Shown here: in pieces, positions 2-13,926 of the stretch
Layout: every line of letters begins with the position of its first letter
Position numbering within the stretch: position 1 is the stretch's first letter
Source: Neomegalonema perideroedes DSM 15528
GTDB lineage: Bacteria; Pseudomonadota; Alphaproteobacteria; Rhodobacterales; Rhodobacteraceae
Assembly (NCBI RefSeq): GCF_000374145.1
Contig: NZ_KB893653.1
Location: forward strand, 505,495-569,494
Length of the DNA: 64,000 nt
Direction of reading: 5' to 3'
Made by a program: the position numbers and the translations under genes
The notes under the pieces: generated by a model
Databases searched by the model: none
Told to the model about the DNA's origin: nothing
What the model saw: only the letters and a program-made list of their open reading frames with translations

Positions 2-217
2 GATGCGCCGTCGCAACCACCGGCACCGCCGCCCGATTGGCGCGAGGCACCGCTGTTCGTCATGCGCCCGGCCGACACGCAAGTTGTCGCCGCGCCGCCG
101 TCCGAGGCGCAATCCGGCGAAGCCCGCGCGACCGTTCCGGCGCGCGATCCCGCCAATGCGGAGCCGCAGGACGGCAGCATTTTCGTGGCAAGCGCCAGCG
201 ACGGCGGAAGGCCATGA
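2..217 (+). CDS. C-terminal end of an unidentified proline/alanine-rich protein (5' cut by window edge)
   Basis: Reading from base 2 gives 71 open codons ending in TGA at 215-217. The peptide begins DAPSQPPAPPPDWREAPLFV and ends FVASASDGGRP, which is low in complexity and rich in Pro and Ala. It looks like the tail or linker of a larger secreted or envelope protein; conjugation proteins such as VirB10/TrbI have linkers of this kind, but nothing here proves it. Base 1 is inside the gene, so the start lies outside the window. The other two frames are also open for a while, so the frame choice rests only on composition and the sensible stop. It may belong to the same older mobile element as the damaged recombinase downstream. 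Confidence 0.35.
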   Translation, partial: DAPSQPPAPPPDWREAPLFVMRPADTQVVAAPPSEAQSGEARATVPARDPANAEPQDGSIFVASASDGGRP

Positions 218-512
218 GGCTGGCGTTCCCGCGCTCAGCGGCGCTCATTCCGTTGTCCAGTCATGCAGGTTTTTGCCCGGCTGGATTCCCGGCAGGAGGG
301 GCAGAAAAGGCAGAAAGGGCGGAGGGCAAGATTAAAGAAGACGGCACCATATGGAGCCGCTTCTGGAAATTGTTGTTGTCTGCACACTGGTTAGGTGGCT
401 GGTTCCGGCACCATGGTTTTGAGGGGCCGCGTGCCGCGATTTCGCGCAAAGCCATGGCTTCGCAGGGTTTCGAGCGGCACCATAGGCCCATATCGGCCTG
501 TTTTCGGCGGCT
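218..512. other. Gap upstream of the broken recombinase
   Basis: No convincing gene is visible in these 295 bases. In the frame of the downstream recombinase there are stops at 333-335 and 420-422 and another shortly before the recombinase-like sequence begins, and no frame encodes a resolvase catalytic domain. A short imperfect inverted repeat sits at about 412-465: CCATGGTTTT is mirrored by AAAGCCATGG around a GC-rich centre. The recombinase was probably broken by a deletion or rearrangement whose edge lies near 490-515. Confidence 0.4.
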
Positions 513-731
513 TTGGCTGGCGTCAAGCTGTTGTCCATCACGCAGGAAATGGGCGACGACCCCATGCACGTCATGATGCGGCAGATCATGGCGCTATTCG
601 ATGAATATCAGTCGAAGGAGAACGGCAAGCACGTCATGCGGGCCTTGAAGGAGAATGCGCGGCAAGGCTTCTGGAACGGCTCCCTTCCTCCCATCGGCTA
701 CCGTGTTGTCGATGCCGAGCAGCGCGGCGCG

Positions 732-794
732 AAGAAGAAGAAGAAGAAGAAGAAGAAGAAGAAGAAGAAGAAGAAGAAGAAGAAGAAGAAGAAG
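732..794 (+). repeat. Perfect (AAG)21 trinucleotide microsatellite
   Basis: Sixty-three bases are uninterrupted AAG, in frame with the recombinase remnant and encoding 21 consecutive lysines between QRGA and LEIDP. In this recombinase family the same spot normally carries about three to five lysines, as I recall the family. The run therefore looks like an expansion of a short AAG seed by slippage. Purity at every unit suggests it is recent, actively varying, or an assembly/sequencing artefact. Confidence 0.95.
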
Positions 795-1855
795 CTGGAG
801 ATCGACCCACTCCATGCCGATACCGTGCGGCTGATCTTCCGCCTTGCATCGGAAGGAGACGGCAATTCCGGCCCGATGGGCGTCAAGAGCATCGTCAATC
901 ACCTGAACAAGCACCGCATGTTCACCCGCAACGGCGGGCGTTGGGGCATCGGCCAGCTTCACCGTGTCCTAACCCGGCTTACCTATATCGGCGAGCATCG
1001 CTTCAATCGCCGCTCCAACAAGGGTGTGGTGAAGCCCGAGGACGAAATCGTCACCGTCCCGGTGCCGCCGCTGATCGACCTTGAGATATTCGAGGCCGTT
1101 CAGAATCGCTTGAAGGTCAACAATCCGAAGGTGACGCCGCCGCGCGTCGTCAGCGGCCCGAACCTGCTGACCGGCATTTGCTATTGCGGCAATTGCGGAG
1201 GCGCGATGACGCTGCGCACGGGCAAGAACGGCCGCTATCGCTATTATGCCTGCTCGATCCGGGCGCGGCAGGGCGAAACCGGCTGCAAGGGCCGCGCGAT
1301 CCCCATGGACAAGCTCGACCGCATGGTTGTGACGCATATCGAGGAAAGGCTACTCGACCCCGAGCGGATCGAAGACGTTCTCGCCTCGCTTCTGGATCGC
1401 CGGCAGGAAGGCGTCGAGCGGCGCAGCCAGCATATCGCCGAGTTGAACCATCGCGCGGCCGAGGCCGACAACCGCCTCAAGCGCCTCTACGATGCCATTG
1501 AAGCCGGTTCGCTCGATCCGGCCGAATCCGCCCTTGGCGAGCGCATCGCGGGACTCACGGCGCTTCGGGATCAGGCGCGGGCCGACGCCGCGCGGACCGA
1601 AGCCATGCTCGCAAGCTCCACCCACCAGCGCCTCACCGGGGCGGCCGTGCGGGAACTGGCGAGCGAAGCACGAAGCAGGCTCCGGCTCGGAATGGGCGGC
1701 TATCGGCGGGAGCACGTCCGGGCCTTTGCACAGCGTGTCGAGGTCGCAGACGACGCAATTCGCATCATGGGATCGAAAACGGAGCTGCTGAAGACGCTTA
1801 TTGCTGGCCAAGGGCGGCAATCGGCGGCGATTGGCGTGCCCAGAGGCGGTCTGAA

Positions 1856-1870
1856 ATGGCGGAGAGGGTG
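1856..1870. other. Left attachment core (copy of tRNA-Ser 3' end)
   Basis: The sequence atggcggagagggtg is identical to 13836-13850, the 3' terminus of tRNA-Ser plus one base. Identity breaks on both sides (A versus T before, T versus G after). The core lies inside the reading frame of the recombinase remnant and 92 bp before the integrase promoter. A 6-bp inverted repeat, GGCGGA/TCCGCC (1858-1863 and 1871-1876), straddles its right edge. Confidence 0.85.
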
Positions 1871-1961
1871 TCCGCCATACTGGTATTCGCTCATGTTCGC
1901 GGCAATTCCATATCATACTGTTTTCAATGTGATAAATCATCCGTATTTTTCATAATGGTTC

Positions 1962-1990
1962 TTGTTCGTTCTCTATCGTTCGTCTAAAAC
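1962..1990 (+). promoter_or_regulatory. Candidate sigma-70 promoter of the integrase
   Basis: TTGTTC (1962-1967) and TAAAAC (1985-1990) are separated by 17 bp in an otherwise AT-rich stretch. A start about 7 bp downstream would put the paired TGTGGGAA repeats at the beginning of the transcript and the integrase ATG (2025) about 28 bp further on. Integrase bound to its arm sites could then repress its own gene. This is pattern matching only. Confidence 0.4.
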
Positions 1991-2000
1991 CGCGTTCAAG

Positions 2001-2020
2001 TGTGGGAACGAATGTGGGAA
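2001..2020 (+). repeat. Paired TGTGGGAA repeats, left end (candidate integrase arm sites)
   Basis: TGTGGGAA occurs at 2001-2008 and 2013-2020, a 12-bp period, immediately upstream of the chosen integrase start. The same pair with the same 12-bp period recurs at 13763-13782 near the right end. Short repeats near both ends of a tyrosine-integrase element are typical of arm-type binding sites. The second copy may also act as the Shine-Dalgarno (GGGAA) for the integrase. Confidence 0.6.
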
Positions 2021-2024
2021 CGCA

Positions 2025-3170
2025 ATGCCTCTCTCCGCTCGAAAAGTCGAAACGGCGCAGCCCGGAAAATATGGCGACGGACAGGGCCTGACGCTCTTCG
2101 TCAAACCCAGCGGCGCCCGCTCTTGGGTGCTGCGCTATCAACTCGCCGGAAGGCGCCGGGATCTCGGCTTGGGGGCTTGGCCGGAGATCACGCTGGCCCG
2201 CGCCCGCGAAAAGGCTCTGGAGGCCCGCCGCATGATCGCCGAAGGGCGCGATCCTCTCGCCGAACGCGCCAAGGCTCGCCGCCTGACTTTCGCCGCCGCC
2301 GCAAAGGCTCTGATCGAAAGCAAGCGCTCCGGCTGGAAGAACGCCAAACACGCCGAACAATGGTCTTCGACGCTGGAAGCCTACGCCTTCCCGATCCTCG
2401 AAGCTTTCGACGTGCGGCGGGTCGAGACGGCGGAGGTTCTGGAGATCCTGCGCCCGATCTGGACGGAAAAGCCGGAGACCGCAAGCCGTCTGCGCCAGAG
2501 GATCGAGGCGGTTCTCGACTACGCCGCCGCCATGGGCGCGCGCGAAGGCCTCAACCCGGCGCGCTGGAAAGGGCATCTGGATCATCTTCTTCCCAAAGCC
2601 TCGAAGGTGAAGGAGGCGGGGCATCATGCAGCGCTGTCCTTCAGGGAGATCGCCGCTTTCATGGCGGATCTGCGCCAGCGCGAAGGGGTGTCGGCTCGGG
2701 CGCTGGAGTTCGTGATCCTGACCGCCGCCCGCTCGGGTGAAGTGAGGGGGATGCGTTGGGGCGAAGTGAATTTGGAGGAGAAGCTCTGGATCGTCCCGCC
2801 TGAGCGCATGAAGGCGAGCAAAGAGCATCGCGTTCCTCTGACAGCGGCGGCCTTGGCGGCGATGGGCGAGCCGGGCGCGGCTGACGCCTTGATTTTCGGA
2901 AGCCAGACGAAGCTCGGCGCGCCTCTGAGCGATATGAGCCTGAGCGCGGTGCTGAAGCGGATGGGACGCGAGGAGATCACGGTTCACGGCTTCCGCTCGA
3001 CCTTCCGCGATTGGGCGGGCGAGACGACCGCCTTTCCGCGTGAAACAATCGAGGCCGCTCTGGCGCATCGCCTCAAGGACAAGGCGGAGGCGGCTTACGC
3101 ACGCGGCGATCTTTTGGCGAAAAGGCGCGATCTCATGGAGGCTTGGGAACGCCATATGTTCGCCAGTTAA
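2025..3170 (+). CDS. int: P4-type tyrosine integrase
   Basis: This 381-residue site-specific recombinase integrates and excises the island at tRNA-Ser. Residues 1-85 form the arm-binding DUF4102 domain (ARKVETAQPGKYGDGQG), about 90-180 the core-binding domain and about 200-381 the catalytic domain. Catalytic residues are visible: R236 (TAARSGEVR), H321 and R324 in HGFR, H348 in AHRL and the nucleophile Y358 in AEAAYARGD. An upstream ATG at 1962 would add 21 unrelated residues across the arm repeats. The ATG at 2025 matches the usual family start (M-x-L-x-ARKVE) and follows GGGAA. The gene lies next to the left att core and reads into the element. The length is normal and nothing is missing, so it is probably active. 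Confidence 0.93.
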   Translation: MPLSARKVETAQPGKYGDGQGLTLFVKPSGARSWVLRYQLAGRRRDLGLGAWPEITLARAREKALEARRMIAEGRDPLAERAKARRLTFAAAAKALIESKRSGWKNAKHAEQWSSTLEAYAFPILEAFDVRRVETAEVLEILRPIWTEKPETASRLRQRIEAVLDYAAAMGAREGLNPARWKGHLDHLLPKASKVKEAGHHAALSFREIAAFMADLRQREGVSARALEFVILTAARSGEVRGMRWGEVNLEEKLWIVPPERMKASKEHRVPLTAAALAAMGEPGAADALIFGSQTKLGAPLSDMSLSAVLKRMGREEITVHGFRSTFRDWAGETTAFPRETIEAALAHRLKDKAEAAYARGDLLAKRRDLMEAWERHMFAS

Positions 3171-3248
3171 TTGCCTACCCAAACGCGCGCATAAGGACGA
3201 ACCTGCACGGCGATTCACGGATTTTAACTATGATTCGGAGCCGCGTTT

Positions 3249-4445
3249 ATGGCCAAGGACATACGCAGCACGCTGCGCAACGCGCCGCCTCAAGCCCTCA
3301 AGGTCTATTTCGAGAGCGTGGCGCCGGAGATCGCCGCAACGCTTGACGGCGAAGCCCTCTCGCGTGCGGCACTTGAGCAATTGATGGAGAAGATCGATCA
3401 AGCGCCGGAGGAACTGGCGGCGCTGATCTACAGCGATTGCGATCTGATCGAACAGATGCGCGACGCCAAGGGCCTGAATTGCATGCGTGGTCTTTATCTT
3501 CTTGATCAGGAGACGCAGGCCTTCTTTAACGAGCAAGAGGATCCGCGCGGCTGCGCTCTGCACCTGATCGCACGGAGCCGAAAGGCCTTCGAGACGGCGC
3601 ATGCGATTTTCTATGCTGAACGCCTTTATCACGGCAAAGACTGGAGCGGTTTCCTGCTCTCAGGCGTCGCTACTTCTCGGGAGTGGATCACGGATAAAGC
3701 TCTTCAGGAGCGTTTCCGCCTGCGCGTCGAAAAAATCCTGAGGGCGCGACGCGACGGACGCCGCCGCTGCAAGGTCGAATGGTTCGCCCGGCTCCGCAAA
3801 GAAGAGGAAGCGCTTCAGATTACGATCCATCAGGAGGATTTCGCGCGCCGGGAAACCGCTTTCGATGAGAAGGACGAACTCACCTCACAGACGCGCCGCC
3901 CTGTCGTCGAGGCCTGCATCGTCTTCAATCCTGCGACGGGCGATCTCGAAGTTTGCGCCAAAGGCGGAAGAGACCTTCGTGAAGAGATCAGCCGGGCTTT
4001 CTGCGACGTTCTGGGGCCTGAGGTGGGGCGCGCTTCCCGTCTTCCCCGCAGATTGAATCTAGATCGCCTCATGACGATGACGCATTTCCCTCTGAAGGCG
4101 GAGGACGGCGTTGAACGCGTGTCGCTGGAGGCGCTCTCTTTCATCATGTCAGACGCTGAAGCGATGAAAACGACGCTGGAAGGGCGAGCCGAACCTGTGG
4201 AGGGCGCTTTCCACAGGCACCTGAAAAATCTGCTTGGCGGCGATCCGGAGGAGCGGATTTCTCAGGTGCGGGCGGCGAACCTGCGCCTTGTTCTTCGACC
4301 CTCAGAGGAAGGGGCCAGAGCGCGTGAGCCAGTGCTGAAGTTAAAAACGCCCAATCTCACCAACCTGCGCGATTTGCGCGAGGAAGAGCAGGAATTGGCG
4401 CGGGAACTGATGGAGCGTTGGGGCCTCTATGCTCAATCGGGCTAA
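3249..4445 (+). CDS. Unknown protein A of a two-gene island cassette (398 aa)
   Basis: I do not recognise this family. The 398-residue product is soluble, charged and mostly helical in appearance, with no signal peptide, membrane segment, Walker motif or clear zinc site. The first ~180 residues are Ala/Leu/Glu-rich and end in a basic stretch (KILRARRDGRRRCKVEWF). The middle (about 190-260) alternates hydrophobic and polar residues like a beta-rich domain, and the C-terminus is a Glu-rich helix. The ATG at 3249 has GGAG about 8 bases upstream. Its end overlaps the start of the next gene by 17 bp, so the two products are probably made together. The pair sits between integrase and AlpA, where small islands often keep cargo; defence or element control are possible but unproven. 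Confidence 0.7.
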   Translation: MAKDIRSTLRNAPPQALKVYFESVAPEIAATLDGEALSRAALEQLMEKIDQAPEELAALIYSDCDLIEQMRDAKGLNCMRGLYLLDQETQAFFNEQEDPRGCALHLIARSRKAFETAHAIFYAERLYHGKDWSGFLLSGVATSREWITDKALQERFRLRVEKILRARRDGRRRCKVEWFARLRKEEEALQITIHQEDFARRETAFDEKDELTSQTRRPVVEACIVFNPATGDLEVCAKGGRDLREEISRAFCDVLGPEVGRASRLPRRLNLDRLMTMTHFPLKAEDGVERVSLEALSFIMSDAEAMKTTLEGRAEPVEGAFHRHLKNLLGGDPEERISQVRAANLRLVLRPSEEGARAREPVLKLKTPNLTNLRDLREEEQELARELMERWGLYAQSG

Positions 4446-5307
4446 TCCAAGGCGCGGCGCTCTGCGCATCCTGCTCCGTCTGCTGGAAGGCGAGGCCTCC
4501 CGCTTTCCACGAAGAAGCGGGGCTGCGGCTGATGATTTCGAGAATCTGATTCAGGCGGGCTTCCTGACGGAGGATAACCTCGTTTATTCGACGATTTGCG
4601 ACGAATGCGGGGAAGGCGAAGCCGCCTTGGTTGAGGTCAGGAATGGGCGAACTGGAATCCTCTGCGGGATCGAGGGCTTCGTCGAACGCGATCCGGAGAG
4701 CCTCGCCGCCTTCCGTTTGGAACGCGACGGTTTCGCGCGGGCGCTGCGAGAGGCTCTGACCGAAGGGGAGGAGGGCGGGGCTTCTTTCTCGAAAATTTCG
4801 GATCATCTTTGGCGTTTGGGCGGATTCTCGCGGGGCGGCGCTTCGGGAACGGCCTTTTTGGCTTTGCGGCTGAAAACTCCTGATGACTTCGTGTTCTTGG
4901 ATCAGGCGATCACCTCACGGCCTCGCCCCTCCGTCGGCGCCGTGTTCACGCTCCAGAGAGAGGCTTCGCCCGGCTTGAGACTGTCTCTGGGTTATCGGCT
5001 GATCCCTTGCGCAGAAGCCCTCCAGTTGACTGAAGACGGCCTTCGTCTGCGCATCGCCGCTTTGGCGGAGGCCTTCCCGGAGATTGCGAGGTTCTCTTCG
5101 GAGCTTCGGGATCGGGGGCGCCCCGGAAAATCGGTGGAAACGGGGCGCGTGATCCGCCATTTGCAGGAGCAAGGTTCTTGGCCGAAAGGGACGAACGCTT
5201 GCATTCGTGCAATTCAAGAGGCTTGGAGCGAGGTGAATCCCGCATCTGAAATTCCTGCGATCTCAACGCTTAAAGATCACCTCAGGAAACTCGCCTCCAT
5301 AGCCTGA
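4429..5307 (+). CDS. Unknown protein B of the cassette, with CxxC-type motif (292 aa)
   Basis: I do not recognise a named family. The N-terminal ~55 residues look like a winged-helix (RRGALRILLRLLEG ... FENLIQAGFLTEDNLVYS). They are followed by a short cysteine motif, TICDECGEGEAALVE, and a further Cys in GILCGIEGFVERDPE, a pattern like a small zinc-binding or treble-clef fold before a helix. The C-terminal ~80 residues are charged and end in a region resembling a DNA-binding tail. Translation starts inside the end of protein A (17-bp overlap), which suggests coupling. A 56-base hairpin follows the stop closely. DNA binding is a reasonable guess; the role is unknown. Confidence 0.7.
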   Translation: MLNRANPRRGALRILLRLLEGEASRFPRRSGAAADDFENLIQAGFLTEDNLVYSTICDECGEGEAALVEVRNGRTGILCGIEGFVERDPESLAAFRLERDGFARALREALTEGEEGGASFSKISDHLWRLGGFSRGGASGTAFLALRLKTPDDFVFLDQAITSRPRPSVGAVFTLQREASPGLRLSLGYRLIPCAEALQLTEDGLRLRIAALAEAFPEIARFSSELRDRGRPGKSVETGRVIRHLQEQGSWPKGTNACIRAIQEAWSEVNPASEIPAISTLKDHLRKLASIA

Positions 5308-5311
5308 TCTC

Positions 5312-5367
5312 AGGCGGACGGAAAAGAGGGCGGAAAACCATTTTCCGTCTCCTTTTTCCGTCCGCCT
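5312..5367 (+). other. Long nested hairpin after the unknown gene pair
   Basis: A perfect 14-bp outer stem (aggcggacggaaaa at 5312-5325 against 5354-5367) encloses a 7-bp inner hairpin, cggaaaa-cca-ttttccg (5331-5347). The intervening bases pair partly, giving nearly one continuous stem with a 3-base loop. There is no T-tract after it, so a simple intrinsic terminator is doubtful. It lies 4 bases after the stop at 5307 and before the AlpA gene. It could be a transcript-end stabiliser, a structured RNA or a protein-binding inverted repeat. Confidence 0.65.
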
Positions 5368-5413
5368 GCTTCGTCGTCCCATGCGCTGGCATTCAACCAA
5401 GCGTGAGGACGCC

Positions 5414-5653
5414 ATGACGAACGAATTCAACCTGAAATCTGACCAATCCCTTGCGCCCCTTGCGGTTTCCCCCGCCGAGGCGGCGCGTCTGGCGGGCGTG
5501 GGGCGCACCACGCTTTACGCCGCCCTTTCGGCGCGGCGGTTGCGGAGCTTCAAGCTCGGCAAGCGCCGCCTGATCTCCATGGCCGCCCTGCGGGAGTGGC
5601 TGGAGGCCTGCGAGGCCGCCCAGATCGAGGAGCCGCGCCATGTCGAGGGCTGA
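5414..5653 (+). CDS. AlpA/MerR-like helix-turn-helix excisionase or regulator
   Basis: This 79-residue protein carries a winged helix-turn-helix of the AlpA/excisionase type: VSPAEAARLAGVGRTTLYAAL forms the helix-turn-helix and SFKLGKRRLISMAALREWLEA the wing and last helix. Such proteins activate integrase or act as excision factors in P4-like elements. An ATG at 5381 in the same frame is less likely; the ATG at 5414 has GAGGA about 6 bases upstream and starts just before the conserved domain. Its end overlaps the primase start by 14 bp, which couples excision control to the replication genes. Confidence 0.85.
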   Translation: MTNEFNLKSDQSLAPLAVSPAEAARLAGVGRTTLYAALSARRLRSFKLGKRRLISMAALREWLEACEAAQIEEPRHVEG

Positions 5654-6530
5654 GGCTTTGACTAAGGCGCTCGGGGGGCGTTGGTCGGGCGGATCGGGCC
5701 TCGCCTGCTGTCCCGCCCATGAGGACCGCTCGCCCAGTCTCTCCCTTCGCGAAGCCGGAGACGGGCGGCTTTTGCTGAATTGCTTCGCCGGGTGCGATTT
5801 CGCGGCGGTGCTGGCGGCGCTCAAAGCGCAAGGTTTGATCTCGGGCGAAGTCCGCCCCGATCCCGAAGCGCAGACCCGGCGCCGCGAAGAGGAGGCCCGG
5901 AGGCGGGAGGAGCGGAGCCGCTGCGGCGATTGGGCGGCGCGGATCTGGGCGGAGAGCTTGCCGATCTCCGAAACTCAGGCTGAGGCCTATCTCCGCAAGC
6001 GCGGCGTCCTCGGACCATTGTCGCGCAATCTGCGCCATCATTCCCGCCTGAAGCATCCCTCCGGCTGCTTCGCGCCCGCTCTGCTGGCGCGGATCGAGGG
6101 CGCAGAGGGCTTCGCCTTGCATCGGACTTGGCTCGATCCTCAGGGCGCGCCCGCGAAGATCGGAGCCTCGCCGCAAAAGGCGATGCTGGGTCCGGCGCGG
6201 GGCGGCGCCGTGCGGCTGCGCGAGGGCGGATCCGGGTTGCTCGCTGTGGCTGAGGGGATCGAGACGGCGCTGGCCCTCGGGCGGGCGCTGGAGCCGGAGG
6301 CCGCTCTCTGGGCGGCGCTTTCGACTTCGGGGATGAAGGGCCTGCGCCTCCCTCATCAAGCGGGGGCGCTGCTGATCGGTCTTGACGGGGACGCGCCCGG
6401 AAGGGCGGCGGGCGCGGCTTTGGCGCATCGCGCGGTGGGTTTGGGCTGGCGGGTGCGGCTGGCTGATCCGGGCGAAGGGCGGGATTTCGCCGATCTGGCG
6501 GCCTTGGCGGATGGAGGCGGGCATGGCTGA
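5640..6530 (+). CDS. Toprim-domain DNA primase of the island
   Basis: This 296-residue primase has an N-terminal zinc finger like the DnaG CHC2 module (C24-PA-H27 with C48-FAG-C52) and a C-terminal Toprim domain. The Toprim catalytic residues are E205 in AEGIETALA and D249/D251 in GLDGDAPG. Between them lies an Arg/Glu-rich linker (about 80-95). It would lay down RNA primers for replication of the excised element, working with the helicase encoded next. Its start overlaps alpA by 14 bp and its stop overlaps the helicase start by 8 bp (ATGGCTGA). The domain order is typical of phage and island primases rather than of chromosomal DnaG, which is about twice as long. Confidence 0.88.
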   Translation: MSRAEALTKALGGRWSGGSGLACCPAHEDRSPSLSLREAGDGRLLLNCFAGCDFAAVLAALKAQGLISGEVRPDPEAQTRRREEEARRREERSRCGDWAARIWAESLPISETQAEAYLRKRGVLGPLSRNLRHHSRLKHPSGCFAPALLARIEGAEGFALHRTWLDPQGAPAKIGASPQKAMLGPARGGAVRLREGGSGLLAVAEGIETALALGRALEPEAALWAALSTSGMKGLRLPHQAGALLIGLDGDAPGRAAGAALAHRAVGLGWRVRLADPGEGRDFADLAALADGGGHG

Positions 6531-8304
6531 GGATCTGATCCGCGCCGCTCTGGAGGAGGCGCAGAGCTTCAGGCCCGCCCGTCCCGACGGGCTGCTGAAT
6601 CCGGAGGCGTGGCCTTATCGTCTCACGGAGGCGGGCGTTCAGAAGCGCCAGAAGGTCGGGGACGAACTGCAATGGCGCCTCTTCGCACCTCCTCTGGAGG
6701 TGCTGGCCGATCTGCGCGACGGCGAAGGGCGCGGCTGGTCCCGGCTGGTCGGTTTCAGGGATCGCGACGGGCGGCGCCATGAGATCCCGCTCGCCATGGC
6801 GGAGATCGGCGCCGGACGCGGGGCGGAACTGCTCGCCCTGCTGGCCTCGGGCGGGTATGAGACGCCGATCCAGTCCACCGCGCGCTCCGATCTGCTGAAC
6901 TGCATCATGCAGGCTCGTCCCGCCGCGCGGCTGCGCAAGGTCGAGCGCCTCGGCTGGCATGGCGGAGCCTATGTCTTGCCGGATCAGGTGATCGGGGCGC
7001 CGCAGGGCGAGCGGATCGCCTTCCAGCCGCCCGGAGATTTCGAGCACGCCTTCCGGGCGGCGGGGTCTTTGGAGGGCTGGCGCGAGGAGATCGCCGCGCC
7101 TTGCGCCGGAAATTCTCGGCTGGCGCTCTCGCTCTGCATGGGCTTCGCCGCGCCGCTGCTGGCGCTTCTGGAGGAGGAGGGCGGCGGGGTCCATCTGCGC
7201 GGAGGCTCCTCGCTCGGCAAGACGACCGCGCTCAACGTGGCGGCGAGCCTCTGGGGCGGCGGCGAGCCGGGCTATGTCCGCTCATGGCGCGCGACCTCCA
7301 ACGCTTTGGAGGGCGTGGCGCTCGCCCATAACGACGGACTGCTCTGCCTTGACGAACTCGGAGAATGCGACCCCCGCGCGGCGGGCGAGGCGGCCTATAT
7401 GCTGGGCAACGGTATCGGCAAGGGCCGGGCCTCGCGCTCGGGATCGGCGCGGGCCGTGGCGCGCTGGCGGCTGCTCTTCCTCTCGACCGGAGAGCTTTCG
7501 CTTTCCGACAAGATCGCGGAGGCGGGCGCGGGCAAGCGGGCGCGGGCGGGTCAGGAGCTGCGCTTTCTGGACCTCCCTGCGGATGCGGGGGCGGGCCTCG
7601 GGATCTTCGAGCGCTTGCCGGAGGGCCGGGCGCCGGGGGATTTCTCCAAGGCGCTGAAGGAGGCCGCGCGGCGTCATCGCGGATGGGCCGGGCCTGCTTT
7701 CGTCTTGTGGATCGCCTCGCGCCGGGAGGAGGTGCGGGAGGCGGCGAAGGCCTTCATGGCCGAATTCCTGCGGCGCGCGACCTCTGAGAAAACGGCGGGT
7801 CAAGCTGGCCGGGCGGCGCGGCGCTTCGCTCTGATCGGGGCTGCGGGCGAGCTGGCGCGGGAGGCGGGGATCTTGCCTTGGCCTTCGGGCGAGGCGCTCC
7901 GGGCGGCGGATCTCTGCCTTCGGGTCTGGCTGGAGGAGCGCGGCGGGGATGGATCCGCCGAAGCGCGGGCGGCGGTCGAGCAGGTGCGGAGCTTCCTCGA
8001 AGCCCATGGCGCGAGCCGCTTTCAATCGGCGGAGGTTTCGGGCGAGCGGGTGATCGAGCGTCTGGGCTTCTGGCGTCCGGGACCGGAGGGCGCCCGCGAA
8101 TATCTGGTTCCCGCCTCCAGCTTCAAGCGGGTCTTAGCGGCGGGCCATGATCCGAAGCTCATGCTTCAAGCCCTCAAGGCGGCGGGGATCCTCCGGACGG
8201 AGGGCGAGGCTCTGGCGGCGCAATCGATTTACATCGGCGCGGAGGGGCAAAGCATGCGCGTCCATGTGCTGCGGCTGAGAGAGGAGGGGCCGGATCATGG
8301 CTGA
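6523..8304 (+). CDS. DUF927-type replicative helicase/ATPase
   Basis: This 593-residue protein belongs to the DUF927 group of primase-associated helicases. Residues ~25-220 form the N-terminal part, followed by an ATPase with Walker A at about 228-235 (GSSLGKTT) and Walker B at about 273-279 (LLCLDELGE). A sensor-like LFLSTGELS follows. It probably unwinds the excised element for the adjacent primase. An ATG 141 bp earlier in the same frame lies wholly inside the primase gene. The ATG at 6523 has GGAGGC just upstream and the 8-bp stop-start overlap typical of coupled genes. The next gene starts with the same overlap sequence at 8297. Confidence 0.87.
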   Translation: MAEDLIRAALEEAQSFRPARPDGLLNPEAWPYRLTEAGVQKRQKVGDELQWRLFAPPLEVLADLRDGEGRGWSRLVGFRDRDGRRHEIPLAMAEIGAGRGAELLALLASGGYETPIQSTARSDLLNCIMQARPAARLRKVERLGWHGGAYVLPDQVIGAPQGERIAFQPPGDFEHAFRAAGSLEGWREEIAAPCAGNSRLALSLCMGFAAPLLALLEEEGGGVHLRGGSSLGKTTALNVAASLWGGGEPGYVRSWRATSNALEGVALAHNDGLLCLDELGECDPRAAGEAAYMLGNGIGKGRASRSGSARAVARWRLLFLSTGELSLSDKIAEAGAGKRARAGQELRFLDLPADAGAGLGIFERLPEGRAPGDFSKALKEAARRHRGWAGPAFVLWIASRREEVREAAKAFMAEFLRRATSEKTAGQAGRAARRFALIGAAGELAREAGILPWPSGEALRAADLCLRVWLEERGGDGSAEARAAVEQVRSFLEAHGASRFQSAEVSGERVIERLGFWRPGPEGAREYLVPASSFKRVLAAGHDPKLMLQALKAAGILRTEGEALAAQSIYIGAEGQSMRVHVLRLREEGPDHG

Positions 8305-8680
8305 AAATCTCAAGGCGCGGCTGCTTGCGGCCTTTGGTGAAAAGCCGCGTGAGGCGCGTGAGAAAGGTGAGACGCCGCCCAAGGCGCTGATCTCTCAGGA
8401 AAAGGCGCTCACGTTTCCGCCCGGCGCCGTCTCACATTCTCACATTTTCGGCGGGAAGCCGGATCCGGGGGTTTGTGAGGATAAATCTCAGAAAAATCAA
8501 CCATCTGCTGATGATCTCACGTTTCTCACGTTCTCACGCGAGGCGGCGGCCCTGCGCCGGATCCTTGATGATGAAGCTTTCTGCGCCTTCGAGGAGCGGG
8601 CGGCGATCCTCGAATATGAGGCGGGCCTTTCCCGCGCGGAGGCGGAGCGGCGCGCCGCTGAGGAGTGGCTCCCCCCATAG
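8297..8680 (+). CDS. Small unknown protein coupled to the helicase (127 aa)
   Basis: This gene starts within the helicase stop (ATGGCTGA overlap, 8297-8304), so it is almost certainly translated. The product is 127 residues long. Its N-terminus is basic (MAENLKARLLAAFGEKPREA), a Ser/Pro-rich middle follows, and a C-terminal helical segment (about 78-125) reads ALRRILDDEAFCAFEERAAILEYEAG, then SRAEAERRAAEEW. That last segment resembles the short C-terminal tails found in island replication accessory proteins. No catalytic motif is visible. A C6-ATA-G6 hairpin overlaps its stop codon. Confidence 0.65.
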   Translation: MAENLKARLLAAFGEKPREAREKGETPPKALISQEKALTFPPGAVSHSHIFGGKPDPGVCEDKSQKNQPSADDLTFLTFSREAAALRRILDDEAFCAFEERAAILEYEAGLSRAEAERRAAEEWLPP

Positions 8681-8685
8681 GGGGG
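8671..8685 (+). other. C6-ATA-G6 hairpin across a stop codon
   Basis: Six C, ATA, six G form a perfect 6-bp GC-only stem with a 3-base loop. The stop codon TAG (8678-8680) of the preceding gene lies in the loop and right arm. No T-run follows. It may slow ribosomes or protect the 3' end, or separate the replication genes from the next gene. Confidence 0.5.
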
Positions 8686-8829
8686 CGGATTAAGGATGGG
8701 GCGGAGGCGGCGAAGACCGCGCCTCCCCGTCGCGCGCGCGGCTGCAGGTTTCGAGGAAAAATCCGGAAGGGGCTTTCCACCGATCAACCCGGTTTGCGCC
8801 TGATGATTTCGAGAAACTTGGAGGCCCCC

Positions 8830-9420
8830 ATGGGCGGATGGAATTCAGGCGGCGGACGCGATGCGCCGCGTGAGGATCATTTTTTGCGGCTGGATCTCTC
8901 CCGGCTGAAGGCTCTGGGCTTTCTCAGGCCTCATTGGCGTCAAAGCCTGATCTGGACGCGCGGAGGTCGCAAAGAGGGGGATATCGTCATAGAGAGTTAT
9001 CCGGATCATCTGATGCTGATCTACCGGACGCGGCGCAACGGGGGCGAATGGCGGAGCGTCTGCGAGCGGGTTTCGCTCGCCTTCACAGAGCCGCATTACG
9101 GCGGGCGGCGGATCTGGATGCTCTGTCCCGGCTGCGGGGCGCGCAAACGCACGCTCTGGGGATCGGAGCGCTTCCTTTGTCGCGCCTGTCATGGGGGCGT
9201 GACCTATGAGAGCCAGTATGCCGACCGGATGGAGCGGAAGCTGACGCGGATCCAGAGCCTCCGGCGCAAGCTGGGCGGCGAAATCAGCCTCGCATGGCCC
9301 TTCCCCGAGCGCCCGAAACGCATGCGCCTCGCGACCTATGAGCGGATGAAGGAGGAGGAGGCCCGCCTCCGCGAAGAGCTGGACCGCCTCACCATCGAAA
9401 AATTCGGATGGAGCCTCTGA
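8830..9420 (+). CDS. Conserved island protein with a zinc ribbon (196 aa)
   Basis: The product begins MGGWNSGGGRDAPREDHFLR and contains a CPGCGARKRTLW ... CRACHGGVTYESQYADRMERK segment, a two-knuckle zinc ribbon at about residues 99-122. A basic helix and PKRMRLATYERM follow near the end. Proteins with this MGGWNSG start and terminal MRWATYERL-like motif recur in alphaproteobacterial islands as conserved hypotheticals; I know of no function. Upstream in-frame ATGs exist, but the ATG at 8830 has GGAGG about 7 bases before it and fits the family start. It ends 11 bp from the convergent antitoxin gene. Confidence 0.75.
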   Translation: MGGWNSGGGRDAPREDHFLRLDLSRLKALGFLRPHWRQSLIWTRGGRKEGDIVIESYPDHLMLIYRTRRNGGEWRSVCERVSLAFTEPHYGGRRIWMLCPGCGARKRTLWGSERFLCRACHGGVTYESQYADRMERKLTRIQSLRRKLGGEISLAWPFPERPKRMRLATYERMKEEEARLREELDRLTIEKFGWSL

Positions 9421-9431
9421 AAGCCCCCGCC

Positions 9432-9722
9432 TCAGGCCGCGAGCCTCTTCAGCATGGCCTCCGGATCGGCGTCGATCAGGCGGAGCAAGGCCCGCGCCGG
9501 GCCTTGAGGAACGCGGCGCCCCTGCTCCCAATTCTCCAGCGTGCGCCGGGAGACGCCGATCCGCTCCGCGAATTCCCGCTGGGTCAACCCGGTTGCGGCG
9601 CGGATGCGCGCCACGTCGAAGGCGGCGGGGATATGCGCCTTGAGATCCGGAACCTTCTTCCCGCCCAGATGCGCCTCGACTTCAGTGAGGCCGCGCATCA
9701 CGCTCTCGAAAACTTCACCCAT
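9432..9722 (-). CDS. Antitoxin with helix-turn-helix (HigA/NadS-like)
   Basis: This 96-residue protein has a C-terminal XRE-type helix-turn-helix, GLTQREFAERIGVSRRTLENWEQGRR, followed by GPARALLRLID. It is the standard DNA-binding antitoxin of RelE/HigB-type modules. It lies after the toxin gene, the reverse of the classical antitoxin-first order but typical for HigBA. The ATG at 9722 is chosen because GGAGG lies just upstream. The stop of the toxin overlaps it by 8 bp (ATGGGTGA). An ATG at 9734 would use that Shine-Dalgarno as codons. It probably represses the operon together with the toxin. Confidence 0.85.
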   Translation of the reverse strand: MGEVFESVMRGLTEVEAHLGGKKVPDLKAHIPAAFDVARIRAATGLTQREFAERIGVSRRTLENWEQGRRVPQGPARALLRLIDADPEAMLKRLAA

Positions 9723-10068
9723 CGGAGCCTCCATAGGTCAGGCCGATCCGCGAAGCGGCGGCGCTTAAGGCGTTCTGCTCGGCTTTGGTCAGAGCCGCTT
9801 TCGCGTTCTTGGCGTAAATCGTGATGAGGAAAACCGGGAGATCCGGCGAGCGGAAAAAATGGATCGTGCGATATCCGCCGCTTTTCCCGCCGTCCGGTCG
9901 AGGGATCCGCGCCTTGAACAGGCCGCCGCCAAGCGCGACGCCCAAGGCCGGATCCGCCGCGAAAAGCCCGACGATCCGCGCGCGCTCCTCCTCGGAAACG
10001 CCCGCCGCCTTGGCGGCGCGGATGAATTCCCCCGTTTCGACGACGGTATGCAGCGCGACTCCAACCAT
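9715..10068 (-). CDS. RelE/HigB-family toxin
   Basis: This 117-residue toxin resembles ribosome-dependent mRNA interferases of the RelE/HigB-2 kind. The signature run is GGKSGGYRTIHFFRSPDLPVFL followed by TIYAKNAKAALTKAEQNAL, which covers the central beta-strands and the C-terminal helix. It would cleave mRNA in the ribosome A site when the antitoxin is lost and so stabilise the island. The gene overlaps the antitoxin by 8 bp and is preceded by a promoter-like pair whose -10 box ends only 5 bp before the ATG. Individual catalytic residues cannot be assigned with certainty. Confidence 0.85.
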   Translation of the reverse strand: MVGVALHTVVETGEFIRAAKAAGVSEEERARIVGLFAADPALGVALGGGLFKARIPRPDGGKSGGYRTIHFFRSPDLPVFLITIYAKNAKAALTKAEQNALSAAASRIGLTYGGSDG

Positions 10069-10073
10069 GCCTC

Positions 10074-10103
10074 ATTCTACGCCATTGGCGGAGTTCAGAG
10101 CAA
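10074..10103 (-). promoter_or_regulatory. Candidate promoter of the toxin-antitoxin pair
   Basis: On the minus strand TTGCTC (10103-10098) and TAGAAT (10079-10074) are 18 bp apart. The -10 box ends 5 bases before the toxin ATG at 10068, so transcription would start at or beside the start codon and give a leaderless or near-leaderless mRNA. A GGCGG/CCGCC inverted repeat spans the -35 and spacer and could be an operator. Confidence 0.45.
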
Positions 10104-10126
10104 GCCGCCAGAATCAGAAAACGGAA

Positions 10127-13100
10127 TCATGAGATGGGGGCGAAACGCCCATCCTCCAGCGCATGAGCTTGAGCGAAGCCCACGAGCGCCTTGAGCGTCT
10201 CTTGCACCTTCTCCGCTTTGACGCGCTGGAAATGCGCTGTGATCGTCTCCGCCTTGAGCGGTTCGGGGGCGGCCTGCAAGACGGCCCGAACCGCCTTCAT
10301 CTGCTCCAGCATCTCCGCAGGCCAAGGCGTCTTTTTCGCCGCTCCGCCCGTCTGAGGCCTCACAAGATCCATTTCTCCGGTTTTGCGGGCGGCGTCTCCG
10401 CCGGAGGGATTCTGATATTTCGGCCTCAGCCAAAGGACTTGGCCGCGCGCCTCTTCATCGGCGCGGGCGTGGTTCAAGGCCACAAGGCGCTTGAGGATCT
10501 CCGGCTCCGCCAGATCCGCAGGCCAGCCATAGGCGGCGGCGGTCGCGGCGTCGATTTCATCATGAATCTGACGCAAAATCCCGATCAGGCCCTGATCGTA
10601 AATGGTTTTCGCCTTGCCCTCGATCAGCTCTCCGGCGCGCAGGGCGGCGAGCACATTATACATCTCCGTCAGCGTCAGCTTAGGATGCAGCTTCTGCCGA
10701 GCCTTCCGATGAGCGTCCAATTGCTCGCCAAGCTCGGCGAGGCGCGCCCGATGGTTTTCAGCGAGCGGCGGGAAGGGGAAGGGATCGAAACATTGGGATT
10801 TTGTGTAAACGGGTCGATCCTCCAATGTTCCGCCCGTCTTGAGCGCCCAGAGGACATGAATGCGGCTGGAGAGAATCGCCAGATGCTCCGCGCTGTCGAG
10901 CGCGATGGCGATCAATCTGTTGTCAGGCAAAATCTGCGCGTCGAGGAATTGAAAAACCCGGTGCTTCGCCGTCTCCACTGTGGCGATATAGCGGGGCAGA
11001 CCTCGAAGCGCGGTCCGCATTTCTCTGCGAGGCCCGCCGAAAGCCCACCAGTTTTCGCGAATGCCTTTATCGCGATTCGCATCCCGCTCCGGCTTCACAT
11101 GATCCAGAATATGCTGATAGACCTCGGGAAATTTGATCTGAACCTCTTTCGCCGTGAGGCCGAATAGATCGATCACCATGACGCCGCGCGAAAGTCGCGT
11201 GAAATCCATGCCGTTCAGATAGGGGCGGATATGGGCCTCAAGTCCTGGAACTCGCCCAAGACCCAAGGATTTTGCGGCGTTGGGCGTGACGATGAAGCCC
11301 GCGCCATGCAGCTTGACGCCCGGCGAAGAGAGAGCCTCATTCGCACACAAAAGAAGGATGTTGGTCAGATCCGCCCCGATCTGAAGATTGGCGAAGATCT
11401 TGCCACGCTGCTCGGCGAGCGTCACCGCGATTCCGCTGTCTTCGACCTCCGTCTCGCCTTCAGACATGACAGTCAGCAAAAGCCCATCCCGGCTTCCCCG
11501 CTCGGCGGCGGTCATGGAGATGCGCACGGCGGCGCCCCCTGTCGAATCCACCCAAGGATGATCCGGAATCGCATAGATCAGCGTTAAAGGCCGCTTCTGG
11601 TCGTTCAGGAAAGGCTCCAGAACGCGGCGGTTGAAGGTCTGGCGCAGGCTGTTGGTGGCGACGAAGCCGAAACGCGCGATCAATCCGGCCTGCGCGAGCT
11701 GCGCCGCTTTGTTCCACCAGAACATGACGAAATCGGCGGATCCCGGCATATCCGGCCAAGCCTTGCGCAGGGCCTCCGTATAGCCGTCGCCCAGAGCCTC
11801 GCGCATCCGGCTCGCCCCGATGAAAGGCGGGTTGCCGATCACCACATCCGCTTTCGGCCATGAGGCGGCGCGCGGGGCCTTGTAATCCAGCACCGGAACC
11901 CGCGCGGCGGGATCGGGAATCTCGGCGCCCGTGCTCGGATTGAGGATCAGGCTCACGCCGTCCCAACGGGTGACGGGCTGGCCCTTGTCGTCAAGGCGCG
12001 GGACGGGCTTTCCGGTCGAGGCCAGAACGGCGTCGCGGGTTTCGACGTTGCGGAAATCCCGGAGGATCGGCTCCGAAGGCTTGGCGTCCTTGAAAAGCCG
12101 GAAATGCTGCTGAAGCGAGCCGATCCAGAGCACAAGCTCCGCGACCGCCGCCGCCCATGGATTGACCTCCAGACCAAGGAATTGCTCGGGGCTGACCGTC
12201 TCGCCGGAGAGGCCGAAATCCGCATCCCGCAATTGCGCCCGCAATTCGTTCACTTCGCCTTCGAGGCGCTTCATCTCCTCCAGCGCCACATAAAGGAAGT
12301 TGCCGGAGCCGCAGGCGGGATCCAGCACCTTCAGAGCGCAAAGGCGCTTGTGGAAATCCTGAACGACCTTGCGGGCCTCCTCGATCTCGTCCTTCTCCGC
12401 CAGAGCGAGGGCGGCGCCCTTGGCGGTCATCCAATCTTCGCGCAAAGGATCGATGAGGACGGGACGCACAAGCCGCTCGACATAGGGCCGGGGCGTGTAA
12501 TGGGCGCCGAGCTTATGGCGCTCCTTGGCGGCGAGGGCGCGCTCCAGAAGGGTTCCGAAAATCGCAGGCTCGACCTGGCTCCAATCGGCCTCCGCCGCCC
12601 CGATCAGCAAGCCGAGCTGTTCGGAGCGCAAGGGAAGAGCCTGCGTCTCCTTGAAGAGAAAGCCGTTGAAGCGGCTGACCTGCTTGCGAAGACTGGTCGA
12701 GAAGCCGCCTCCGTCCATCTTCTGCCAAAGCTCCGTGACGAGAGGCGGGAAGCTCTCAGGCACTCCGCGCGCGGCGCGCAGCAGCTCCTTGAAGCTGTCC
12801 TTCGGCAAAAGCTTCACGTCTTCGGCGAACATCGTGAAGAGGCAACGCATCAGGAAGCGCGCCACGACCTCGGAAGGATGGCCGTCCTTCTCCAGACTCA
12901 CGGCGAGAAGGGAGAGATGCGTGGCGATCTCCCGCGTCACGCGGGCGGCTTCGCGGCTGCGGTCCAGAGAGAGGGGATCCGTCCAGATCGCCAGAAGGCG
13001 GGCGCGGATCTCGGGATTGAGCAGATCCTCCAGCTTGATGCGATAGCTTTGAGGATCGGGGAAAGGCGCGTAGTTCTTCCCGATCAGAGAGAAATCCGCG

Positions 13101-13585
13101 TAAACGTCGATGATATGCCCGATATCGACTGCGATGATGAAGGGCGGCCAGCCGTGATTCTTGGGCAAGGCCTTCGCATATTTCTCGGCTTGGGCGCGGG
13201 CCTTCCACATGGCCGCGTCGAAGCTTGAGGAGGTGCGCGCCACTTTGCCGGACTTGGGGCCGGACTTCGGAGCGAGCAAGGGCAGTTGAGGGAGATCGGC
13301 GGGCTTCTCAGGTTTGGCGCTTTGCTTCGCCTCCAAGACGAAGCAGCCGCGCTTATAGAGGTCTATGAAGCCCGAAGAGGTGGCGCCGCCCGCGTGATGG
13401 AAGGTCACCCGCTTTTCAAAGACGTAATCATCTTTAAGGCCGTTGGCGGGATCATGGGGCGGCGCGCCCAGAAGCGCGGCGAGTTCGATCAGGAAGCTCT
13501 GATAATTCGCCCGTTCGCTGGCGCTTGAAGCCGCCCAACGCTTGATGAACTTCGCCGCCTGCGCATTCTCGTCGTCAACGGACAC
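10127..13585 (-). CDS. MmeI-like single-chain restriction-modification enzyme (type IIG/IIL)
   Basis: The 1152-residue protein combines nuclease, methyltransferase and target recognition in one chain. Near the N-terminus a PD-(D/E)xK site is complete: D75 in GFIDLY and E85-x-K87 in FVLEAKQ. The adenine methyltransferase has SAM motif I DPACGSGNF (422-430) and catalytic motif IV NPPF (585-588). The following ~400 residues should hold target recognition, and the last ~100 form an extra helical tail. The enzyme would methylate host DNA and cut unmodified invaders. Translation starts at GTG (13585) with GGGGGAG upstream. It lies at the tRNA-proximal end of the island, reads inward, and is followed 58 bp later by the toxin-antitoxin genes. 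Specificity cannot be read from the sequence. Confidence 0.88.
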   Translation of the reverse strand: MSVDDENAQAAKFIKRWAASSASERANYQSFLIELAALLGAPPHDPANGLKDDYVFEKRVTFHHAGGATSSGFIDLYKRGCFVLEAKQSAKPEKPADLPQLPLLAPKSGPKSGKVARTSSSFDAAMWKARAQAEKYAKALPKNHGWPPFIIAVDIGHIIDVYADFSLIGKNYAPFPDPQSYRIKLEDLLNPEIRARLLAIWTDPLSLDRSREAARVTREIATHLSLLAVSLEKDGHPSEVVARFLMRCLFTMFAEDVKLLPKDSFKELLRAARGVPESFPPLVTELWQKMDGGGFSTSLRKQVSRFNGFLFKETQALPLRSEQLGLLIGAAEADWSQVEPAIFGTLLERALAAKERHKLGAHYTPRPYVERLVRPVLIDPLREDWMTAKGAALALAEKDEIEEARKVVQDFHKRLCALKVLDPACGSGNFLYVALEEMKRLEGEVNELRAQLRDADFGLSGETVSPEQFLGLEVNPWAAAVAELVLWIGSLQQHFRLFKDAKPSEPILRDFRNVETRDAVLASTGKPVPRLDDKGQPVTRWDGVSLILNPSTGAEIPDPAARVPVLDYKAPRAASWPKADVVIGNPPFIGASRMREALGDGYTEALRKAWPDMPGSADFVMFWWNKAAQLAQAGLIARFGFVATNSLRQTFNRRVLEPFLNDQKRPLTLIYAIPDHPWVDSTGGAAVRISMTAAERGSRDGLLLTVMSEGETEVEDSGIAVTLAEQRGKIFANLQIGADLTNILLLCANEALSSPGVKLHGAGFIVTPNAAKSLGLGRVPGLEAHIRPYLNGMDFTRLSRGVMVIDLFGLTAKEVQIKFPEVYQHILDHVKPERDANRDKGIRENWWAFGGPRREMRTALRGLPRYIATVETAKHRVFQFLDAQILPDNRLIAIALDSAEHLAILSSRIHVLWALKTGGTLEDRPVYTKSQCFDPFPFPPLAENHRARLAELGEQLDAHRKARQKLHPKLTLTEMYNVLAALRAGELIEGKAKTIYDQGLIGILRQIHDEIDAATAAAYGWPADLAEPEILKRLVALNHARADEEARGQVLWLRPKYQNPSGGDAARKTGEMDLVRPQTGGAAKKTPWPAEMLEQMKAVRAVLQAAPEPLKAETITAHFQRVKAEKVQETLKALVGFAQAHALEDGRFAPIS

Positions 13586-13762
13586 TTACAGACTCCCCCG
13601 CATGCAACGCCCCCGCCCTCGTCTCCCATATTTCGGCGGCGCCGTCTCTAGTCTTTGGGGCGCAGGGCCTGAGAAGGCGCGGAGGCTCCATCATGAGCGT
13701 TGCGGAGGGGCTGCGAATCTAGGGGAGGAGCGAGAAAAACCGCCCAACAATCCCCCGCAGAA

Positions 13763-13782
13763 TGTGGGAATATATGTGGGAA
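13763..13782 (+). repeat. Paired TGTGGGAA repeats, right end (candidate integrase arm sites)
   Basis: TGTGGGAA at 13763-13770 and 13775-13782 repeats with a 12-bp period, the same arrangement and strand as 2001-2020. It lies 54 bp from the right att core in an AT-rich stretch (13741-13835) that otherwise holds no gene. The stretch 13586-13760 shows nothing I can name. Confidence 0.6.
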
Positions 13783-13835
13783 TGATTTTTCTCAAATCTA
13801 TTTTTCCCAATAAAAACAATAACTTATTGGAATAT

Positions 13836-13850
13836 ATGGCGGAGAGGGTG
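13836..13850. other. Right attachment core at the tRNA-Ser 3' end
   Basis: The sequence atggcggagagggtg matches 1856-1870 exactly. It covers the encoded CCA, discriminator base and acceptor 3' arm of tRNA-Ser (minus strand) and one base beyond. The tRNA is intact at this junction. Confidence 0.85.
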
Positions 13851-13926
13851 GGATTCGAACCCACGATACCCTTGCGGGTATTCCGGTTTTCGAGACCGGC
13901 GCGATCGACCACTCCGCCACCTCTCC
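13837..13926 (-). tRNA. tRNA-Ser(CGA)
   Basis: The 90-base minus-strand gene begins GGAGAGGTGGC and ends CCTCTCCGCCA with an encoded CCA. Acceptor arms GGAGAGG/CCTCTCC pair fully. The anticodon stem-loop CCGGT-CTCGAAA-ACCGG gives anticodon CGA, which reads UCG serine codons. The long variable arm (ATACCCGCAAGGGTAT) marks a class II tRNA, and the T-loop is GGTTCGAATCC. The 3' end is the integration target of the neighbouring element. Confidence 0.97.

Follow-up and report, generated by a model that had tools for sequence, protein, structure and literature searches.

The locus lies within a stretch of 64,000 nucleotides, here called the window, and comprises a truncated gene of the large serine recombinase type, with a long AAG tract in its reading frame, transfer-region DNA joined to its front, a tRNA-Ser attachment-site remnant at its end and an integrated element beyond it (Table 1). 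Pfam assigns the Recombinase (PF07508) and zinc-ribbon (PF13408) domains to the window protein, both over the Pfam cut-offs, and finds no Resolvase catalytic domain (PF00239) in it; the intact relative L020 displays all three, including PF00239. Without the catalytic N-terminal domain the window protein cannot be an active large serine recombinase. The best fold matches in the PDB are large serine integrases and, indeed, the Recombinase and zinc-ribbon domains as well as the fold are common to the remnant and the phiC31, Bxb1 and SP-beta integrases, all large serine recombinases, from which the remnant differs by the missing catalytic domain.

Comparison at the DNA level reveals that homology with the recombinase relatives begins mid-gene, at 518/519 of the window, and that the preceding transfer-region homology stops at 524, the two sources overlapping by a few bases that read GGCGTC in the window. 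Positions 18-524 are 90.3% identical to a Pseudomonas plasmid stretch located between merR and a DUF3363 gene; in other plasmids this stretch bears the annotation of a lytic transglycosylase gene. RepA-like, DUF2840 and DUF736 genes are present upstream on the contig. Judged from these junctions, the locus may be the decayed form of an integrative or plasmid-like element whose recombinase gene would have lost its front to a deletion. As a separate observation, the genes of a type I restriction-modification set (HsdM, specificity subunit and HsdR) are found farther upstream, and a GmrSD-type gene also lies upstream of the remnant (L130:374-6882 and L130:9844-11112).

Table 1. Features of the recombinase remnant and its surroundings, in window coordinates.
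Feature	Position	Strand	Basis
Plasmid/ICE transfer-region DNA: end of lytic transglycosylase gene and stretch preceding DUF3363 gene; not recombinase	18..524	+	DNA alignment
Truncated large serine recombinase ORF, 480 aa if TTG at 513 is the start (putative start)	513..1955	+	Pfam, ORF
Fusion junction, transfer-region DNA to recombinase	518..524	.	Ends of the two homologies
Perfect (AAG)21, 21 Lys codons, replacing the five-codon K-M-K-K-K of nearest relatives	732..794	+	Sequence, relatives
Mosaic 3' end of remnant, other subclade	1720..1870	+	Sequence comparison
Attachment-site remnant ATGGCGGAGAGGGTG	1856..1870	+	15-bp identity to tRNA-Ser(CGA) 3' end
Tyrosine integrase of ~12-kb element; neighbour, outside tract	1962..3170	+	
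tRNA-Ser(CGA), presumed original target, with ~12-kb element now between tRNA and remnant	13837..13926	-	

The tract occupies window positions 732-794 as an uninterrupted (AAG)21, read in frame within the ORF 513-1955 as 21 lysine codons. Tandem Repeats Finder delineates it at 731-794 with period 3, 21.3 copies and 100% match. The original prediction of a perfect run of 21 lysine codons inside a recombinase gene is thereby borne out for the run and for the recombinase family, while the notion of a whole gene gives way to a remnant devoid of its catalytic domain. When the window is shuffled 100 times with its dinucleotides preserved, the expectation for an AAG run of at least five units is 0.00; as an unbroken tandem series of a short unit that chance does not account for, the tract fits a microsatellite. 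It is located in the interior of contig 1 (1.52 Mb) and is the sole AAG run of at least seven units in the 3.41-Mb genome (17 contigs). Since the genome contains no other long AAG run, the expansion represents a local event; mutS and mutL are both intact, and from these genes and the lack of further long AAG runs no genome-wide slippage defect is evident.

We also assessed how exceptional such a run is, using two partially overlapping samples, of 385 genomes from the same class and of 399 from the phylum. AAG runs of at least 10 units were recovered in four genomes of the former (21 units here; 10, 11 and 12 in the others) and runs of at least 13 units in two of the latter (21 here, 16 in the other). 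Across both samples (AAG)21 is the longest AAG run; long AAG runs are not unheard of in bacteria, and the tract is nonetheless unusually long for a bacterium. An (AAG)16 run, apparently non-coding, is found at L139:1501-1548 in a second genome of the same class. Among characterized systems, the (CCG)n of Mycobacterium tuberculosis Rv0050 (PMC3176237) is likewise an in-frame triplet run in a bacterial coding gene that has been attributed to slippage; it has however 7-10 units and varies among strains, whereas the present tract has 21 AAG units, in one genome and in a truncated mobile-element gene. The vlhA genes of Mycoplasma gallisepticum (PMC6258824) are associated with the same repeat, GAA being another register of AAG, mostly with 6-12 units, but these tracts are positioned upstream of the genes and affect promoter activity, while the one described here is inside the reading frame of the remnant.

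The relatives permit the state before expansion to be delineated. The homologous segment is exactly five residues long in all 68 relatives with a readable site (KMKKK in 23, KTKKK in 22, KVKKK in 14, the remainder similar), which sharpens the earlier expectation of a short Lys-rich linker and implies a net gain of 16 codons in the window copy. Its commonest DNA version, AAGATGAAGAAGAAG, present at 21 of the 68 loci, is also that of the nearest relatives, which read AAG-ATG-AAG-AAG-AAG at the site of the tract. In none of the 68 is the second codon of the segment AAG, there are at most three consecutive AAG codons, and no intermediate tract lengths occur among them; the tract itself is carried by one genome only. 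The possibility that L028 represents a contig broken at the tract was rejected, its sequence reading KMKKK.

Structurally, the AlphaFold model has low confidence overall (mean pLDDT 57.7). Two strands, 63-68 and 92-97, are predicted where the recombinase domain begins, separated by a disordered loop at residues 71-90 with pLDDT below 50. In this model the lysines seem to extend the loop of a hairpin, and the fold could survive an in-frame insertion in such a predicted loop.

What is left of the frame runs open for 480 codons, and the changes that separate it from the nearest relatives are mostly synonymous, with a dN/dS of ~0.15, suggesting that the gene was constrained until recently and that most of the divergence predates the decay. 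The motif VLTRRTYIG is changed to VLTRLTYIG in the window copy, the second arginine being kept in all 58 relatives displayed, and the loss of this conserved residue, outside the mosaic end, fits a recent relaxation. Amino-acid changes make up 14 of the 28 codon states unique to the window copy, mostly at codons 404-428; we rejected this excess as a sign of relaxed selection because the cluster originates from the mosaic 3' end. There, at 1720-1870, the affinity of the sequence shifts to a different subclade of this recombinase family, with an identity at 1779-1838 of ~95% to L062, L063 and L065 as opposed to ~65% to L020. The body of the recombinase and its last 150 bp thus belong to different subclades, and attachment-site ends appear to have been exchanged between elements.

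We consider it probable that the tract is a young microsatellite without function, which slippage has expanded in a large serine recombinase gene that is dead and lacks its 5' part. Starting from an ancestral AAG-ATG-AAG-AAG-AAG, a deletion would have brought transfer-region DNA up against the interior of the gene at the expense of the catalytic serine domain, and with the truncation the selection on segment length would have been lost. A pure run of five or four AAG could then have arisen, by one T-to-A substitution turning ATG into AAG or by loss of that codon, and replication slippage, repeated or in one larger jump, may have extended it to 21 units. Slippage as the mechanism, truncation preceding expansion and the absence of function are what we infer, and the purity of the tract points to a recent expansion. 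Loss of function alone is not the cause, as L010, which has a stop codon, and L039, which lacks a recognisable catalytic start, are damaged too and remain unexpanded. Among the three options originally put forward, the best supported is that of a relaxed repeat in a dead gene, considering the deleted catalytic domain with its junction at 518-524, the exchange of the conserved arginine for leucine and the invariant segment length in the relatives.

An artefact of sequencing or assembly, with the length of a shorter tract inflated or misfixed, is an unlikely source of the run. The tract is known from a single assembly, is found in no other relative, and two scans of viral contigs returned no match to the expanded version, all of which is compatible with an artefact. 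On the other hand, a tract of 63 bp fits within common short reads and easily within long reads, it is embedded in a 1.52-Mb contig although unresolved repeats more often break or collapse, and the nearest relatives offer no seed run of four or five units, so that some real sequence change is required regardless. Expansion in a still-intact recombinase, or gene conversion from another AAG-rich locus, with the truncation occurring afterwards, strikes us as rather improbable. The mosaic 3' end does demonstrate that recombination has acted on the gene, but a donor for conversion is missing in a genome without another AAG run of seven or more units, and the invariant five-residue length in relatives, nearly all of them with a catalytic domain, suggests that intact enzymes do not tolerate such an insertion.

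A phase-variable tract had also been proposed. On/off phase variation is unlikely because gain or loss of a three-base unit leaves the reading frame unchanged; neither the unit nor the position of the tract is such that it would switch a frame or a promoter, no promoter-like site was found near the tract or upstream of the frame, and this option is not supported. A related idea is that of a functional contingency locus or tuner, in which tract length adjusts the DNA affinity of a truncated attachment-site-binding protein that competes with intact recombinases. The open frame, the retained DNA-binding domains, two more homologues with long open frames in the same genome and a lysine-rich loop that could contact DNA are compatible with such a role, which we nevertheless regard as very improbable: beyond the absent frame switching and promoter-like site, an arginine of a conserved motif is lost, and no second genome carries the tract, leaving no sign of maintained variation. 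The most specific form of the idea, in which the remnant is expressed, has a polylysine loop of variable length, still binds at tRNA-Ser attachment sites and disturbs the intact recombinases in the cell, is scarcely to be expected. Purine mirror repeats can in principle form triplex DNA. At the level of translation, iterated AAG in E. coli is reported to slow ribosomes while decoding stays correct, unlike AAA, on which ribosomes slide (PMC4363877).

Provided that the tract is real, a slippage-expanded microsatellite in a dead gene would constitute an extreme case of bacterial microsatellite birth, with the pre-expansion state available from 68 relatives and the mismatch-repair genes intact, and it could offer a natural setting for testing AAG slippage beyond model plasmids. 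The siting of this recombinase clade at tRNA-Ser 3' ends may however matter more than the tract. The 15 bp of ATGGCGGAGAGGGTG at 1856-1870 are identical to 13836-13850, the 3' end of tRNA-Ser(CGA), placing an attachment-site remnant beside the gene in a family whose members abut tRNA-Ser genes. Indeed, for 46 of the 59 relatives L020-L078 ARAGORN detects a tRNA-Ser gene that adjoins the recombinase gene at its 3' end and runs on the other strand; its anticodon is CGA, TGA, GGA or GCT and it usually has the same locus coordinate (e.g. L020:3557-3646). Two plasmid copies have the same adjacency. A Paracoccus phage with a serine recombinase has been placed at a tRNA-Met gene (PMC6536676). The ~12-kb element that occupies window 1871-13836 encodes, besides its tyrosine integrase, excisionase-like and primase-like proteins, and has 15-bp identical ends.

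Element-side conservation among the relatives ends with TGGCGGA, the reverse complement of the tRNA-Ser 3' end TCCGCCA, and in L023, L046 and L050 it continues instead into TGACRTCYAACCTTCTC. The window's own genome has no match, at up to two mismatches, to a left-end repeat of the serine-recombinase element. A search for the TGACRTCYAACCTTCTC motif in 21 genomes or records located, at other places, copies having one or two mismatches that immediately follow a tRNA-Ser-like TGGCGGAG...GGGCC in L164, L165, L167, L176 and L182, and more weakly in L163; these copies, following partial tRNA-Ser ends, are placed as expected of left ends and represent candidates for them.
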